This document shows positions 36,113 to 45,222 of a stretch of DNA of 53,721 nt, one piece after another; within the stretch, counting starts at the first letter, position 1; every line of letters starts with the position of its first letter. Source of the DNA: Desulfobulbaceae bacterium (GTDB lineage Bacteria > Desulfobacterota > Desulfobulbia > Desulfobulbales > SURF-16); NCBI GenBank assembly GCA_002868945.1, contig PKTX01000034.1, positions 1 through 53,721 on the forward strand, written 5' to 3'. The position numbers and the translations under genes were made by a program. Under the pieces are notes generated by a model. The model was given only the letters and a program-made list of their open reading frames with translations, was not told where the DNA came from and searched no databases.

Positions 36113-37918
36113 ATGACCCCGGAAATTATACTTGTCATGGCAGTACTGTGCGTGGCCATTCTTTTGTTTATTTTCGAATGGGTGCGCGTCGATGTCGTCG
36201 GCATTATTATGATGGTCAGTTTGCCGTTACTTGGTTTGGTTTCCCCCCAGGAGGCCATCAGCGGCCTCTCCAGTAATGCCGTGGTTTCCATTATTGCCGT
36301 TATTATTATCGGCGCCGGATTGGACAAGACCGGTGCCATGAACTCCCTGGCCAGGTTGATCCTGAAGTTCGCCGGCAAAAGCGAAGCCAGAATTGTCACC
36401 CTGATCTCATCCACGGTTGCCGTTATTTCAAGCTTTATGCAAAATATCGGCGCCGCCGCCCTCTTCATGCCGGCGGCCAGAAGAATCGGTAAGCAGACCG
36501 GTATTCCTGTTTCCAGGATTCTGCTGCCCATGGGCTATTGCGCCATTATCGGCGGCTGCCTCACCCTGATCGGCTCAAGCCCCTTGATCCTCGTCAACGA
36601 CGTCATGAAGATTACCAATCCCGACGTTGAGCCCTTCGGGCTTTTCTCGGTGACGCCCATTGGTATTGCCCTGACCATTGCCGCCCTCATCTACTTTGTT
36701 ACCCTGGGCCGCTTTGTTCTGCCCAGCGGCAAGGGCGAGGAATCTTCCGGCCCCATGTCGGCCATCCTCGCAGACACCTATCGCGACCTGGGCAACCTTT
36801 ACGAACTCCATATTCCGGCCGATTGGTCGGGTGAGACCTTACTGGAAAACCTTTCCATCCGGCCCCTCTACTACGTCACCGTGGTGGCCATCTCGCAAAA
36901 CCGGACAAAACACAAGATTTTTGCCCCAAAGCGGGATTCGGAAATTGGCCCTGGTGATGATATCGCCGTGTTCGGCAGCGAGGAGATGGTTCGCAAGATG
37001 GCGGCTCAGTTGGGCTGGCGCCTCAAGCACGATATGGTTGCTTTTGCCGAAGACCTTTCGCCCAATAATGCCGGGATCATAGAGGCCATAATCACACCGA
37101 GATCGGAGTTGGTGCACCACACCATGCGCTCCTTTGCGTTCCGCAAAAACTACCAGGTCAACCCCATGGCCATCTACCGCAACAACGAGGTTCTGGTGGC
37201 CGGCATATCGGAGATTCCCCTCCAGCCCGGCGACGCCCTTTTACTGCAGGGGCGGTGGGAGAAATTCCACGTCCTCAAGAAGAAGCCGGACCTGGTCTTC
37301 ACCGAAGAGGTGCAGGGTGAAATCATCAAAACGGACAAACTCAAGTATGCCGTGGCCTGTCTCGCTGTTGCTCTCACCCTGATCCTGGGCTTTCAGGTCC
37401 AGCTATCAGTAGCCTTACTCTCCGGTGCCCTGGGCATGGTTCTTACCGGCGTCTTATCCATTGACGAGGCCTACGGCGCCGTGGATTGGATGACGGTCTT
37501 TCTGCTGGCCGGCCTCATCCCCCTGGGCATCGCCTTTCAAAATACCGGGGCAGCCGGCTACATTGCCACATCGATCATGGGGGCCATCGGCAATGTCTCC
37601 CCTCTTCTTCTGCTGAGCGTTATCGCCATGCTCACCTCTTTTTTCACCCTGGTGGCCTCCAATGTCGGGGCCACGGTGCTGATGGTGCCGCTGGCCATGA
37701 ACATGGCGGCAAGTGCCGGCGCAGACCCGCGCATGGCGGCCCTGGTGGTGGTGGTGGCCTGCTCCAACACCTTTGTGCTTCCCACCCATCAGGTAAATGC
37801 CCTGATCATGCGACCGGGCGGCTATAAAACCATTGATTATTTCCGGGCCGGCACAGGCATGACCCTGCTCTACCTCATCGTCATGATGGCCACGATCCAC
37901 TTCTTTTACGGTATTTGA
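36113..37918 (+). CDS. SLC13-family permease with TrkA-C domains
   Basis: The protein has 601 residues. Membrane helices fill both halves (residues 1-195 and 405-601), with AISGLSSNAVVSIIAVIIIGAGLDKTGAMN and the mirrored VGATVLMVPLAMNMAASAGADPRMAALVVVVACSNTFVLPTHQVNALI carrying the SNT signature of the DASS transporters. Between them lie two TrkA-C (RCK-C) domains (about 225-300 and 310-395: LENLSIRPLYYVTVVAISQNR, ISEIPLQPGDALLLQG). Such proteins move dicarboxylates, sulfate or related anions with Na+; a sulfur anion would suit this host, but the substrate is not determined by sequence. It is 346 bp upstream of the octaheme cytochrome. Confidence 0.88.
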   Translation: MTPEIILVMAVLCVAILLFIFEWVRVDVVGIIMMVSLPLLGLVSPQEAISGLSSNAVVSIIAVIIIGAGLDKTGAMNSLARLILKFAGKSEARIVTLISSTVAVISSFMQNIGAAALFMPAARRIGKQTGIPVSRILLPMGYCAIIGGCLTLIGSSPLILVNDVMKITNPDVEPFGLFSVTPIGIALTIAALIYFVTLGRFVLPSGKGEESSGPMSAILADTYRDLGNLYELHIPADWSGETLLENLSIRPLYYVTVVAISQNRTKHKIFAPKRDSEIGPGDDIAVFGSEEMVRKMAAQLGWRLKHDMVAFAEDLSPNNAGIIEAIITPRSELVHHTMRSFAFRKNYQVNPMAIYRNNEVLVAGISEIPLQPGDALLLQGRWEKFHVLKKKPDLVFTEEVQGEIIKTDKLKYAVACLAVALTLILGFQVQLSVALLSGALGMVLTGVLSIDEAYGAVDWMTVFLLAGLIPLGIAFQNTGAAGYIATSIMGAIGNVSPLLLLSVIAMLTSFFTLVASNVGATVLMVPLAMNMAASAGADPRMAALVVVVACSNTFVLPTHQVNALIMRPGGYKTIDYFRAGTGMTLLYLIVMMATIHFFYGI

Positions 37919-38060
37919 AAACTCGGCGCCATTCCTTCATCACTCTTCTCCGCGCCTCCGGCCCAGCCGGGCAGATACGGCCCGGCACGGAGAACACCTG
38001 ACTGCCGCCTTGCCTCTTCTCGGCCGGCCATCTCCTTCTGGCACACCAGTCCCCCTCTCC

Positions 38061-38112
38061 TGTTACGCCCTGGTAACATCCGCAGCGCGGCATCTGTTAC
38101 CAAGCTGTAACA
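38061..38112 (+). promoter_or_regulatory. Two tandem palindromic activator sites upstream of the octaheme cytochrome
   Basis: TGTTAC-N6-GTAACA occurs twice, at 38061-38078 and 38095-38112, with perfect 6-bp arms and centres 34 bp apart. They lie about 80-130 bp before the expected start of a sigma-54 promoter, where enhancer-binding proteins usually bind. Confidence 0.8.
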
Positions 38113-38164
38113 AACACCCCCTCTTCTCCCCCCCAAACCTCCAAAAACAAGGCAAAAAACATCT

Positions 38165-38178
38165 GGCACGCTCCCTGC
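38165..38178 (+). promoter_or_regulatory. Sigma-54 (-24/-12) promoter of the octaheme cytochrome gene
   Basis: TGGCACG-N4-CTGCA at 38164-38179 gives GG (38165-38166), 10 bp, then GC (38177-38178), the invariant spacing of RpoN promoters, with one mismatch to the full consensus. Expected start is near 38190, leaving a leader of about 75 nt. Confidence 0.82.
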
Positions 38179-38264
38179 AAATAGAGAAAGCCACGGAGCT
38201 TGAGGACCCTGTTTCGGGGCACATTCAGTCTGAAGGCCCTGCAAAAAAAATGGAGAAAGAAAGT

Positions 38265-39611
38265 ATGAAAAAGCAAGGACGTTTAAAAATGTTGACGGCA
38301 TGCGGCAGCTTGGTTGCGGCAGCCCTGTTTGCTTCAGGATCAGCCATGGCAGCTCCCGGCGACACCTGTGTTTCCTGCCATCAGGAGAGCAATCCGGGCA
38401 TGTATCTGCAGTGGAAAAATTCCAAACACGGCAACAACGGTATCGGCTGTATCGACTGTCATGAGGCGAACGCCACGGATATTGATGCCTTCCAGCATCA
38501 CGGCGCCACCATCGCCACCCTGGTTACCCCCAAGGACTGTGCCAAGTGCCATGAAGAAGAGGCACAGCAGACCATGAACTCCTATCACGCCCACGCCGGC
38601 GAGATCCTGGAGTCCGCTGATGCCTACCTGGCCCACGTGGCCGGCGGCAACCCGGTGGCCATCACCGGCTGCGCCACCTGTCACGGCGCCAAGATCAAGA
38701 TCGACCCGGCGGCCCCCAACAAGCTCTCCGCCGAGACCTGGCCCAACTCCGGTATCGGCCGCCTGAACCCGGACGGCTCCAAGGGCTCCTGCAACGCCTG
38801 TCACTCCCGCCACTCCTTTTCCGTGGAACAGGCCCGCCAGCCTGAAAACTGCGGCAAGTGCCATTTGGGCCCGGATCATCCCCAGAAGGAGATTTACGAG
38901 GAATCGAAGCACGGTATCGCCTACTATGCCCACAAGGACAAGCTGAACATGGACCGGGACGAGTGGGTCGTGGGCAAGGATTACTATGAGGCGCCCTCTT
39001 GCGCCACCTGCCATATGTCCGCCACCTCCAGTCAGGCTATCACCCATGATGTGGGCGATCGCATCTCCTGGACCCTGCGGCCGCCGGTCTCCAAGCACAA
39101 GGACAACTGGACGGTAAAACGGGGCAACATGAAGGATGTCTGCCTCAACTGTCACCAGGAGCGCTTCGTGGACGGCCATTATTACCAGTATGACGCCCTG
39201 GTGGAGCTCTACAACGAGAAGTTCGCCAAGCCGGCCACCGAGATCATGAACATGCTCAAGAAGAAGGGCCTCGAACGACCCGCCGCCTTCTCCAATCAGG
39301 TGGAGTGGGAGTACTGGGAGCTCTGGCACCACGAGGGCCGCCGGGCCAGGATGGGCGCCGCCATGATGGGCCCGGACTACACCTGGTGGCACGGCATCTA
39401 TGACGTGGCCCACAACTTCTACTTCAAGTTCATCCCTGAGGCACGCCACTATAACGATGCCGAGGTCAACGCCTACATCGACAGACTGCTGCGTGATGAT
39501 CCCATGCACACCTGGATCAATACGCCGACCGCCGAACTGAAGGCCGCCATCAAGAGCGGAGAGCTCCAGCAGGTGTATCAGTCTCTCTTTGAGAAAAACA
39601 TCCAGAAGTAA
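38265..39611 (+). CDS. Octaheme c-type cytochrome, hydroxylamine oxidoreductase family
   Basis: The protein has 448 residues from the ATG at 38265 (SD GGAG); a longer frame upstream has no SD and crosses the sigma-54 promoter. A Sec signal peptide (KMLTACGSLVAAALFASGSAMAA) sends it to the periplasm. Eight CXXCH sites are visible: CVSCH, CIDCH, CAKCH, CATCH, CNACH, CGKCH, CATCH, CLNCH. The C-terminal region has MMGPDYTWWHGIYDVAHNFY, the segment in which oxidative HAO carries its cross-linking tyrosine. Non-ammonia-oxidisers use HAO-like enzymes to reduce nitrite or hydroxylamine to ammonium, the likely role here. There is no adjacent quinol-oxidising cytochrome, so the electron donor must be encoded elsewhere. 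Confidence 0.92.
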   Translation: MKKQGRLKMLTACGSLVAAALFASGSAMAAPGDTCVSCHQESNPGMYLQWKNSKHGNNGIGCIDCHEANATDIDAFQHHGATIATLVTPKDCAKCHEEEAQQTMNSYHAHAGEILESADAYLAHVAGGNPVAITGCATCHGAKIKIDPAAPNKLSAETWPNSGIGRLNPDGSKGSCNACHSRHSFSVEQARQPENCGKCHLGPDHPQKEIYEESKHGIAYYAHKDKLNMDRDEWVVGKDYYEAPSCATCHMSATSSQAITHDVGDRISWTLRPPVSKHKDNWTVKRGNMKDVCLNCHQERFVDGHYYQYDALVELYNEKFAKPATEIMNMLKKKGLERPAAFSNQVEWEYWELWHHEGRRARMGAAMMGPDYTWWHGIYDVAHNFYFKFIPEARHYNDAEVNAYIDRLLRDDPMHTWINTPTAELKAAIKSGELQQVYQSLFEKNIQK

Positions 39612-39662
39612 CCTCCCCATGTGGCGGCGTCTTCTCTTCCGCGCCGCTGCATTGTACCACTG

Positions 39663-39694
39663 AAAAGGGTGCCTCCGGGCACCCTTTTCTTTTT
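39663..39694 (+). terminator. Terminator after the octaheme cytochrome gene
   Basis: AAAAGGGTGCC pairs with GGCACCCTTTT around a TCCG loop and is followed by CTTTTTCTT. The A-run on the other side could also serve the convergent HDAC operon. Confidence 0.9.
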
Positions 39695-39770
39695 CTTATT
39701 CTCACAGAATCTCAGCCATCCCTAAATGGTGTACAAGCCCCTGGTGGCTTGAGCGGACCACAGGCACATG

Positions 39771-41513
<1,743 letters not shown>

Positions 41514-41514
41514 C

Positions 41515-41982
41515 TCAAAGCTCCTTGCAGTAAACAATTTTGTCGTCGCCGGGACCGTAGAACTCCGGCAACACGCAGGCCACTTCATAGCCGTGCCGCT
41601 CATAGAATGAGCGAGCCTGCCCATAGGCCGGGGTGGCGGAGGTGTCCACATAGACCCGCACGCCTCTGCCCACTTTTTCCTCCATGGCCCGCAGCAGCAG
41701 GCTGCCCACCCCCTGGCGCGCCACCCGGGGGGCCACGGCGATCCAGTAGAGATCCCAGCGCTTGACCGTGATGGGAATGGGGCCATAGCAGATAAAGCCG
41801 CAAAGCCTGCCATGGTCATCCAGGCTCACCAGGATGTCATAGCCGTTTTCCGGCGAGGCCAGGCCGTCCCGGATGACCTGGCAGGCCAACTCCTTTTCGC
41901 TGTCGTTAAAGGTGTCGATGGTGGCAATCAGGGCAAAGAGCTGGTCACCATCGGCAGCGGCGGCGCTTCGCAGGGTCATCAT
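41515..41982 (-). CDS. GNAT-family N-acetyltransferase
   Basis: The protein has 155 residues starting MMTLRSAAAADGDQLFALIATIDTF. The acetyl-CoA binding region is IAVAPRVARQGVGSLLLRAMEEK (motif R-x-x-G-x-G/S variant, about 90-112), followed by YVDTSATPAYGQARSFYERHGYEV. It starts 4 bp after the ATP-grasp gene and ends 1 bp before the GNAT-HDAC gene, so the two acyltransferases are made together. By analogy with AblB, which acetylates beta-lysine, it could acetylate the product of KamA or of the ligases; this is inferred. Confidence 0.85.
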   Translation of the reverse strand: MMTLRSAAAADGDQLFALIATIDTFNDSEKELACQVIRDGLASPENGYDILVSLDDHGRLCGFICYGPIPITVKRWDLYWIAVAPRVARQGVGSLLLRAMEEKVGRGVRVYVDTSATPAYGQARSFYERHGYEVACVLPEFYGPGDDKIVYCKEL

Positions 41983-41986
41983 TTCT

Positions 41987-42973
41987 TCAGACCCGGGCCC
42001 GCAGGAAGCTGACAAACCTGCCGACCATATCGCCATAGCTCATGCCGGCCTGGCCGGCGGCGGCCACGAAACCGGCATCAGGACTCAGGCAGGGATTGGC
42101 GTTTGCCTCCAGGACATGGACGCGGCCGGCGCCATCCAGGCGCAGGTCGATGCGGCCATAATCGCGGAGCTGGAACAACCGGTAGGTGGCAAGCGCCACC
42201 CGGCCCAGCTCGGTCGAGAGACCTGCGGCCATCTCCGCGGGAAAGAGGCGATTGGTGTTGTGATACTCAAAGGCGTCCTCGTCCCACTTGGCCCGATAGC
42301 CGACAATCTTCTGCAGATCATCGGGAAAGGCGGAAAAATCAATCTCGGCCAGGGGCAGCACCCGGGCCTCCGGATAGCCGAACAGGGAGACATTGAACTC
42401 CCGGCCGTCTATGAACTGCTCCAGGAGCAGGGGGCCATATTGCCGGTAAAAATCGGGAATCTTGACGGCCAGCTCCTCCCGGCTGCAGACAATGGACTCC
42501 TGATCAATGCCGATGCTGGCGTCCTCCAGGCGGGGCTTAATAATGGCCGGCAGGGCCATGTCCAGGAGAGGGGCGAGATCGCCGCCGTCATAGTCGCGGT
42601 AGACAGGGGTGAGAATACCGGCGGCCGCCAACTGCCGTTTGGCCAGGAGCTTGTCCGTGGTGAGCATCAGGGCCAGGGAGCCCGAGCCGGTAAAGGGCAG
42701 ATCCAGCAGCTCAAAGAGGGCGGCGGGGTGGCCCACCATCTGGGCGTCGTCATCAACACTTTCGCAGAGGTTGAAGATCGCCTCGATGCGGTGGTGCTCC
42801 AGGGCGGCCAGGAAGGCGCCCACATCACGATCAAAGGGCAGGGCCAGACAGGAGATGCCCAATGCCACCAGGGAACGCTCCACCGCCTCCACCTGCCGCA
42901 GGACATCCTGGGACGACTGCCAGTTGGCGCCGCCGGCCGCCACGGGGCGATTATGGACAATGGCAATTTTCAT
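41987..42973 (-). CDS. ATP-grasp ligase A (D-Ala-D-Ala ligase-like)
   Basis: The protein has 328 residues. ATP-grasp signs are K in TTDKLLAKRQLAAAGI, PAIIKPRLEDASIGI (nucleotide loop), LLLEQFIDGREFNVSLFG, and the metal-binding GRIDLRLDGAGRVHVLEANANPCLSPDAGF. The family joins an amine to a carboxyl-phosphate, making dipeptides such as D-Ala-D-Ala, but substrate-specifying residues differ from Ddl. No mur or fts genes are near. Its context beside KamA and GNATs points to ligation of beta-lysine or another amino acid. It is 7 bp downstream of the second ATP-grasp gene. Confidence 0.88.
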   Translation of the reverse strand: MKIAIVHNRPVAAGGANWQSSQDVLRQVEAVERSLVALGISCLALPFDRDVGAFLAALEHHRIEAIFNLCESVDDDAQMVGHPAALFELLDLPFTGSGSLALMLTTDKLLAKRQLAAAGILTPVYRDYDGGDLAPLLDMALPAIIKPRLEDASIGIDQESIVCSREELAVKIPDFYRQYGPLLLEQFIDGREFNVSLFGYPEARVLPLAEIDFSAFPDDLQKIVGYRAKWDEDAFEYHNTNRLFPAEMAAGLSTELGRVALATYRLFQLRDYGRIDLRLDGAGRVHVLEANANPCLSPDAGFVAAAGQAGMSYGDMVGRFVSFLRARV

Positions 42974-42980
42974 CGACCCG

Positions 42981-43958
42981 TCACATCCCCAGGCGGGCCA
43001 GACAGCTGGCGACGATCTCGCTGATCAGCTGTTGGTAGCCCATGCCATGCTTGTCGGCAATGATGCAGAGGTCGGAATGTTCCGGATGCAGGCCGGCAAT
43101 AGGGTTGATCTCAATGAAGTTGGGTCGGCCATGGCCATCGGAACGCAGATCCACCCGGCCGGCATCGCGGCAATCAAGACCGTGCCACACCTCCAGGGCC
43201 ACCCGTACCGCCTCGTGGGCCTCCGGGTCGTCCGCCACCCGGTACTCCACCACCTCCTCGCAGATCTCCTTGTTATGATAGGAGTAGACATCCGCTTCGG
43301 AGTTTTCCAGCAGGATCACCTCGATGATGCCGATGGAACGGGCCTGGTCGCCGTTGCCGACAATGCCCACCGTGAATTCCCGGCCCGGCAGAAAGGTCTC
43401 CACCAGCACCGGCTGGCGATAGGAGGCCAGCAGGTCGGCACAGACCGTCTGTAACTGCGCGGGCGCCGCGATCTTGGAGACCGGGGTGACGCCCTTGCCC
43501 GTGCCCTCGGCCACGGGTTTAGCAAAGAGGGGATAGGGCAGATTGACGGCAGCCGCCTCGGCCGGGGAACGCACCAGGGCAAAATCCGGGGTGGCGATGC
43601 CCAGGTCGCGTACCAGCCGCTTGGCCGTGGCCTTGTGCAGGGTGACCGCCATCATCAAGGGGTCGGAAAAGGTATAGGGGATGCGGTAGGCGTCCAGCAG
43701 GGCCGGCACCACCGCCTCCCTGCCGAAGCCATACAACCCTTCGGCAATGTTGAACACCAGGTCCCAACGGTGGCCGGCGGCCAGCCTCTTGACCAGGCTG
43801 TCGACATTACCGATGCGGTCGGTCTGATGGCCAAGGGCCTGCAGGGCCCCTTCAATGGCGGCAATGGTGTCGGGCCGGTCGAACTCGGCGGTTTCTTCCT
43901 CGCCGTATCCTGCCGCCAGATAGTCGGCGCGCAGGTCATAGGTCATGCCAATATTCAT
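42981..43958 (-). CDS. ATP-grasp ligase B (D-Ala-D-Ala ligase-like)
   Basis: The protein has 325 residues from the ATG at 43958 with GAGG upstream. It contains KATAKRLVRDLGIATPDFALV, PLFAKPVAEGTGKGV (nucleotide loop), PVLVETFLPGREFTVGIVGNG and the metal ligands in GRVDLRSDGHGRPNFIEINPIAGLHPEHSDL. It is clearly paralogous to its neighbour but not a recent duplicate. Two ligases suggest two successive amide bonds or two different acceptors. It follows kamA by 31 bp in the same operon. Confidence 0.88.
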   Translation of the reverse strand: MNIGMTYDLRADYLAAGYGEEETAEFDRPDTIAAIEGALQALGHQTDRIGNVDSLVKRLAAGHRWDLVFNIAEGLYGFGREAVVPALLDAYRIPYTFSDPLMMAVTLHKATAKRLVRDLGIATPDFALVRSPAEAAAVNLPYPLFAKPVAEGTGKGVTPVSKIAAPAQLQTVCADLLASYRQPVLVETFLPGREFTVGIVGNGDQARSIGIIEVILLENSEADVYSYHNKEICEEVVEYRVADDPEAHEAVRVALEVWHGLDCRDAGRVDLRSDGHGRPNFIEINPIAGLHPEHSDLCIIADKHGMGYQQLISEIVASCLARLGM

Positions 43959-43989
43959 GGTATCCTCAAAAAAAGTGGGCGATTTGCCC

Positions 43990-45222
43990 TTACAGCGGGT
44001 CAGGGTAGCGATAGATGTTGCCCTCGTAATTGCGGAGGAGCACATCGTTGCCGTCCCGGCCAAGGCAGGTCTGCGGTAGCAGCGGAATCTTGCCGCCGCC
44101 CCCCGGGGCGTCAATCACATAGGTGGGCACGGCGTATCCCGTGGTATGACCCCGCAGACCCTGGTAGATCTCCAGGCCCTTGTCCACCGTGGTCCGGAAG
44201 TGGGCCGAACCGATAATGGGATCGCACTGATAGAGGTAGTAGGGTTTGACGCGCAGGCGCACCAGGCCCTGCATCAAAGTTTTCATGGTGGCCACGTCAT
44301 CGTTGATACCGGCCAGCAGCACGGTCTGACTGCCCAGGGGAATGCCGGCGTCCGCCAGCCGTGCGCAGGCCTTTTTCATCTCAGGGGTCTGCTCATCCGG
44401 ATGCATGGCATGGATGCTGATCCACAGCGGATGATAGCGTTTGAGCAGGCGGGTGAGCTGAGGGGTGATGCGCTGGGGCAGGACCGCCGGGGTCTTGGTG
44501 CCGATGCGAATGAGCTCCACATGCTCAATGGCGCGCAGCCGTTTAAGGAGATACTCCAGGGTTTCGTCCGGCAGGGTCAGGGGATCACCGCCGGACAGAA
44601 GCACGTCGCGGATCTCCGGATGCGCCTCGATATAGGCAAAGGCCTTGTGCCAGCGCTCCTTGGTGGATGTCGTGTTCCGGGCCCTGCCCACCATGCGGGA
44701 GCGCGTGCAGTAGCGGCAATAGGTGGAGCAGTAATCCGTGACCAGAAACAGGGCCCGATCAGGATAGCGGTGCACCAGGCCGGCCACCGGGGTATGGCTG
44801 TCCTCACCCAGGGGGTCATGGGCCTCGCCGGCGGAAACCACCAGCTCGTTTACCACCGGCACCACGGCCCGACGGATGGCCTGGGCGGGGTTGTCCGGAG
44901 AAATGAGACTGGCGTAATAGGGTGTTATGGCAAAGGGTAGAGTGGCATCGCGACGCTGCAGGGCCTGCTGCTCGCTGTCAGTGAGGTTGATTATTTTTTC
45001 AAGCTCTTTGCTGCTGGTTATGCGGTTCCGCAATTGCCAGCACCAGTCGTTCCACTGGGCCGCGCTGGCGGTGGGGAAGAATCTGTTGCGAAAGGCCTTG
45101 GCGCCGGAGGGGGCGGCAAAGCACACCGAAATGACGGAAGACGGGGAAGGGGGGCAGATCGTCAGGTGAGACGAACTGGGAGGTTCCTCCGGCTCTTCTA
45201 TCTGTAGACTATGAGGGGCCAT
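43990..45222 (-). CDS. kamA: Lysine 2,3-aminomutase (radical SAM, PLP)
   Basis: The protein has 410 residues. The radical SAM cysteines are C165, C169 and C172 in DYCSTYCRYCTR. The C-terminal half has YQCDPIIGSAHFRTTVDKGLEIYQGLRGHTTGYAVPTYVIDAPGGGGKIPL. The aspartates in QCD and in IDAPGGGGK are the two residues that bind the lysine side-chain amine in clostridial LAM; glutamate mutases lack this pair. It converts L-lysine to L-beta-lysine. The SD is AAGGAG. It heads a five-gene operon that has ligases and acetyltransferases instead of the lysine fermentation genes, so a biosynthetic use is likely. Confidence 0.93.
   Translation of the reverse strand: MAPHSLQIEEPEEPPSSSHLTICPPSPSSVISVCFAAPSGAKAFRNRFFPTASAAQWNDWCWQLRNRITSSKELEKIINLTDSEQQALQRRDATLPFAITPYYASLISPDNPAQAIRRAVVPVVNELVVSAGEAHDPLGEDSHTPVAGLVHRYPDRALFLVTDYCSTYCRYCTRSRMVGRARNTTSTKERWHKAFAYIEAHPEIRDVLLSGGDPLTLPDETLEYLLKRLRAIEHVELIRIGTKTPAVLPQRITPQLTRLLKRYHPLWISIHAMHPDEQTPEMKKACARLADAGIPLGSQTVLLAGINDDVATMKTLMQGLVRLRVKPYYLYQCDPIIGSAHFRTTVDKGLEIYQGLRGHTTGYAVPTYVIDAPGGGGKIPLLPQTCLGRDGNDVLLRNYEGNIYRYPDPL

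Follow-up and report, generated by a model that had tools for sequence, protein, structure and literature searches.

A candidate sigma-54 regulon for nitrate/nitrite ammonification in the Desulfobulbales, viewed from the promoter of an octaheme cytochrome gene

In the genome of a Desulfobulbaceae bacterium (assembly GCA_002868945.1), a stretch of 53,721 nucleotides of contig PKTX01000034.1, hereafter called the window, carries a gene for an octaheme cytochrome of the HAO type preceded by two palindromes and a sigma-54 promoter element. This promoter very probably belongs to a sigma-54 regulon for nitrate/nitrite ammonification, run by a sensor kinase and a response regulator encoded side by side on another contig of the same genome (C25). 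The features on which this reading draws can be seen directly in the DNA, namely the operators, the promoter, their conservation and rigid spacing, the co-localisation with the kinase and regulator genes, and the gene content of the regulon. On a broader scale, the balance tilts slightly towards an ammonification regulon spanning the order Desulfobulbales, where a kinase with a periplasmic heme-c (sCache_heme) domain would sense nitric oxide (NO) or nitrite, a sigma-54 regulator would act through its own operator, TGTTACC-N4-GGTAACA, and HAO-type octahemes would provide, next to Nap and NrfHA, a second reductase for nitrite, NO or hydroxylamine.

The promoter of the octaheme gene and its counterparts in the genome

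The elements of the octaheme locus are, from upstream to downstream:

38061-38078, no strand: distal operator UAS1, TGTTACGCCCTGGTAACA, a perfect TGTTAC-N6-GTAACA palindrome, from the sequence and a match to the tandem-site profile
38095-38112, no strand: proximal operator UAS2, TGTTACCAAGCTGTAACA, likewise perfect TGTTAC-N6-GTAACA, 34 bp from UAS1
38164-38179, plus strand: sigma-54 -24/-12 element, TGGCACGCTCCCTGCA, 69 bp past the start of UAS2, reading TGGCACG-CTCC-CTGCA
38265-39611, plus strand: open reading frame of the HAO-type octaheme cytochrome, starting at the ATG at 38265, with a match to PF13447
39662-39689, plus strand: hairpin resembling an intrinsic terminator (12 pairs and a T tract), closing a one-gene transcript

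Both palindromes reported in the first-pass annotation are thus present without mismatch, and its GG-N10-GC promoter corresponds to a near-consensus element, with GG at 38165-66 and GC at 38177-78, which departs from TGGCACG-N4-TTGCA by a single mismatch and lies 69 and 103 bp beyond UAS2 and UAS1, respectively. The sigma factor itself is encoded in the genome (rpoN, C55:66515-66994, 218 bits against PF04552). Taken alone, paired palindromes with up to two mismatches are not rare in this window, as they occurred in 8 of 100 shuffled versions, while a site with up to two mismatches together with a sigma-54 element at the correct distance was found in none of 60 dinucleotide shuffles. No sigma-70-like promoter was found in the interval searched, 37900-39800. 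The sites do not follow the GT-N7-AC pattern of NorR, as had been pointed out from the sequence, and a literature search on the TGTTAC/GTAACA motif returned unrelated papers only.

When the search for the palindrome was extended to the whole genome (3.7 Mb), only three perfect sites were found, i.e., the pair in the window and one at the nap promoter on contig C25, and the reversed pattern used as a control gave no perfect site in the same genome. A one-mismatch site at C10:19052, lying among transposase and glycosylation genes, was put down to chance. Tandem operators with a sigma-54 element precede three further transcription units, namely (i) napD-napA-napGH, (ii) a second nrfH-octaheme operon (nrfH-hao2), and (iii) nrfHA, the last with weaker sites. 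A profile of the tandem sites recovered exactly these three places and the window in the organism's own genome at an E-value of up to 10; the window scored 6e-5. After removal of the organism's own sites from the model, nap was still recovered at 1e-6, nrfH-hao2 at 0.004 and the window at 0.007, the next match elsewhere having an E-value of 1.26. At all four promoters the sigma-54 element lies 54-69 bp downstream of the operators. At the nrfHA operon (contig C30), the two sites (L266:6946 and 6980) are exactly 34 bp apart, carry two mismatches each and are followed 68 bp further on by the element TGGCACATCTTTTGCT; they are stronger in relatives than in this genome. The presence of NrfHA also rules out the idea that NrfA is absent and the octaheme the only nitrite reductase.

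The first-pass annotation had found no activator gene in the window, and indeed none of the sigma-54 activator domains of the genome is on this contig. On contig C25, a kinase gene with a Tll0287 heme-c domain stands side by side with the gene of an NtrC-type response regulator, a divergent operon of an NrfH-like protein and an octaheme cytochrome, a napF-like ferredoxin gene, and napD-napA-napG-napH-NapC-type genes, the NapA exceeding the NCBI equivalog cut-off. The operator pairs and sigma-54 elements at nap and nrfH-hao2 are located before napD and the NrfH-octaheme operon of this cluster. The kinase is composed of PF11845 (Tll0287/sCache_heme; 90.3 bits, cut-off 24.1), HisKA and HATPase_c domains; its CXXCH motif, H59, M98 and Y106 are invariant across 52 orthologues with no further invariant Cys, a pattern in keeping with a heme whose site is open or exchangeable. 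The regulator comprises REC, sigma54_activat and HTH_8 domains with a GAFTGA motif, and 49 orthologues carry its recognition helix, LGISRKNLWEKMK, almost unchanged. We infer that this regulator is the activator missing from the window. A second two-component sigma-54 regulator is encoded at locus L015 (contig C57, 1072-3359, minus strand), where it adjoins a transposase-like gene.

Operator geometry and distribution across the order

The layout was followed in 258 genomes of the order, including relatives from the Desulfurivibrionaceae, Desulfofustis and Desulfopila. The tandem pair was found in 17 of them and the reversed control pattern in none. Of 63 perfect sites, 21 precede orthologues of the C25 kinase by no more than 500 bp, against fewer than 0.01 expected from uniform placement by our own estimate. 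Conversely, 40 loci were selected with kinase homology as the sole criterion; a paired site is present at 27 of them, and at 25 a site is accompanied by a sigma-54 element. Kinase and sites have as neighbours nap and nrfHA operons, the latter with four CXXCH and one CXXCK, along with operons that combine an octaheme gene with that of an NrfH or a tetraheme protein. When the palindrome was shuffled in twelve ways as a control, no pair turned up, compared with 106 for the real motif at the same regulon loci, about one third of which had been picked by the motif and most of the others by the kinase. At nine loci (L171, L172, L177, L178, L236, L240, L242, L247 and L250), operons subject to, or close to, the same operators encode a small tetraheme protein followed by a longer octaheme protein (40-45% to the one in the window); apparently, they represent a different octaheme subfamily within the same regulon.

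In total, 48 promoters share the layout and most of them precede nap, nrfHA, nrfH-hao or octaheme operons. While partner sites were searched for at 28-40 bp, all were found at 32, 33 or 34 bp. The sigma-54 element is located 66-70 bp past the proximal site in 30 of the 48 promoters and 54-59 bp in 7, whereas shuffled palindromes had such an element at the fixed distance in 0-3 cases; distances of 100-105 bp would fit a degenerate proximal site. At L249 and L254, the element lies 124 bp from the proximal site, some 55 bp above the usual distance, possibly because a proximal operator was overlooked or another sigma-54 site is present. Two positions that played no part in site selection are also conserved, position 7 being C in 28 of 34 distal and 26 of 34 proximal sites and position 12 being G in 31 and 28 of 34, respectively. 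As such, the operator is better written TGTTACC-N4-GGTAACA, each window site retaining one of these two extra bases. The operator falls in the TGT-N12-ACA class noted earlier in D. vulgaris for activators of sigma-54 promoters; the same study gives tGGcacg/tTGCt for the promoter, with which the elements found here agree (PMC4641369).

In the proposal read from the sequence alone, an activator other than NorR, linked to nitrogen or redox state, controlled the octaheme gene; this is supported by the comparison, since like operators stand before nap, nrfHA and NrfH-octaheme operons and, throughout the order, keep company with a single two-component system. This switch, made of a heme-bearing sensor and a sigma-54 activator, has a wide distribution within one order of sulfur bacteria. 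Conservation of the palindromes upstream of octaheme orthologues, suggested in the same proposal as a check, is not universal, but in the order sample every orthologue with the full layout belongs to a kinase-bearing genome. Where the genome has the kinase, the layout stands before 8 of 14 orthologues of the cytochrome encoded in the window, and where it does not, before 0 of 16 (p=0.0005); in the close octaheme clade the counts are 3 of 8 and 0 of 13 (p=0.04). At 62 further octaheme loci (L057-L118), which come almost entirely from other phyla, neither a pair nor a site with at most one mismatch was found, and so the promoter does not look like an old feature of the octaheme gene family.

Weighing the assignment

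Several observations weigh against the assignment. The nrfHA pair of the genome, with its two mismatches per site, is lost from the held-out profile search. In the close octaheme clade, the sites are missing from most promoters, so that membership of the regulon is recent or patchy; on the available genomes, the octaheme gene is best described as a lineage-specific member. In a Desulfofustis bin, a tandem pair (L043, 4988-5035) is present upstream of an octaheme orthologue although the search of this bin turned up no kinase, due either to an incomplete bin or to another binder. Finally, among the other activators examined in the genome, the L015 regulator, and only this one, has a recognition helix (LGISRKMLWKKLK) resembling LGISRKNLWEKMK of the C25 regulator.

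The most serious alternative, albeit an unlikely one, is that the system is a literal orthologue of Desulfovibrio NrfSR and holds nothing new: NrfR is a sigma-54 response regulator activating nrfHA on nitrite, with predicted sites at nap (PMC5701242, PMC6456213), and the targets here are comparable. The published sites bound by LurR/NrfR, however, are of the GTCCGCTTTTCAAGAC type (PMC6456213) and not GTTACC-N4-GGTAAC, and a survey of 297 genomes from across the phylum turned up kinases closely related to that of C25 (E<=1e-90) in this order only. As the operator is of another type, the system is not assigned to NrfSR.

There is only a slim chance that the operators are bound by the L015 regulator instead, the C25 pair controlling something else. 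It is likewise an NtrC-type response regulator adjoining a kinase, and its helix is the one just mentioned; nonetheless, operators are located directly upstream of the C25-type kinase across the order, and the L015 locus has no operator site even at one mismatch. It is at least as doubtful that the layout before the window octaheme is a relic, the gene having been acquired with or near the regulon and its control lost since. The window cytochrome is missing from three other genomes of the genus and, as said, most close orthologues lack the sites, but the window pair, both members being perfect, is the best preserved in the genome by mismatch count and is followed by a sigma-54 element with one mismatch. 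Long perfect palindromes of such size also serve dimeric repressors. It is nevertheless highly improbable that the palindromes serve a repressor, or a regulator of the FNR/CRP or GntR type that acts independently of sigma-54, and that the sigma-54-like element is incidental, given the recurrence of that element at a fixed distance in the 48 promoters and the lack of a sigma-70-like promoter in the interval searched.

With control by the C25 pair as the preferred explanation, nitrate or nitrite respiration would give rise to periplasmic nitrite and a little NO, and the periplasmic Tll0287 (sCache_heme) domain of the membrane kinase, bearing a covalent heme c, would most likely sense NO or nitrite. 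The kinase would supply phosphate to the adjacent response regulator, two dimers of which may sit on the paired sites, separated by about three turns of the DNA helix and nearly on one face of it. Once phosphorylated, the regulator would oligomerise and, via DNA looping, remodel the RpoN-holoenzyme at 38164-38179, switching on the octaheme gene, predicted to be monocistronic, together with nap, nrfH-hao2 and nrfHA. The product (448 amino acids, 8 CXXCH motifs and a signal peptide-like N-terminus) scores 89 bits against PF13447 (cut-off 21.9), as expected of an HAO-type octaheme, and its closest solved structures are HAO-family chains, 4qo5 being the best; its reaction is presumably the reduction of nitrite, NO or hydroxylamine. 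If true, the operator would provide a recognisable sequence mark for genes of nitrate/nitrite ammonification in an order of sulfur bacteria from sediments for which the enzymes of that process are under debate, shared regulation would tie poorly understood octaheme cytochromes to ammonification, and the recently described heme-Cache NO-sensor domain would gain a candidate regulon, with signal, operator and enzyme roles all directly testable.

Of note, the minus strand further along the window (39771-45222) encodes a lysine-2,3-aminomutase-like radical SAM enzyme, two ATP-grasp enzymes of the D-Ala-D-Ala-ligase type, a GNAT acetyltransferase and a histone-deacetylase-fold protein, which looks like an unexplored beta-amino-acid or peptide pathway.

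Comparison with known systems

NorR is a one-component sensor and sigma-54 enhancer-binding protein for nitrogen-oxide stress acting at GT-N7-AC sites, whereas the present system has a response regulator with a receiver domain and another operator. In D. vulgaris, a sigma-54 activator also controls an octaheme cytochrome gene (DVU3142-ohcBAC; PMC4641369), but with a different octaheme complex (Ohc), a different regulator and no link to nitrate. In Desulfurivibrio, Nap and octaheme cytochromes are strongly induced on nitrate (PMC12142623), in agreement, in outline only, with the present regulon.

Regarding the sensor, the parts of a preprint drawn on here describe signalling-fused members of sCache_heme (DUF3365/Tll0287, PF11845) as holding NO like known NO sensors (PMC12889525). 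The C25 kinase has the same sensor domain with an invariant CXXCH and, by analogy, would be expected to bind NO; those passages name no regulon or operator for sCache_heme kinases, for which the present one is a candidate.

The closest known system appears to be NrfSR of Desulfovibrio vulgaris and D. desulfuricans, a nitrite-linked kinase and sigma-54 response regulator targeting nrfHA and, as predicted, nap (PMC5701242, PMC6456213). Both share an NtrC-type regulator (REC, AAA+, Fis-type helix-turn-helix, GAFTGA) with an adjacent kinase, as well as operators and a sigma-54 element upstream of nrfHA. They differ in the operator, TGTTACC-N4-GGTAACA here versus the GTC-N10-GAC type of NrfR/LurR (PMC6456213), and in the HAO-type octaheme operons found here among the targets. 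The system is as such best regarded as NrfSR-like, probably governing the same process through another operator.
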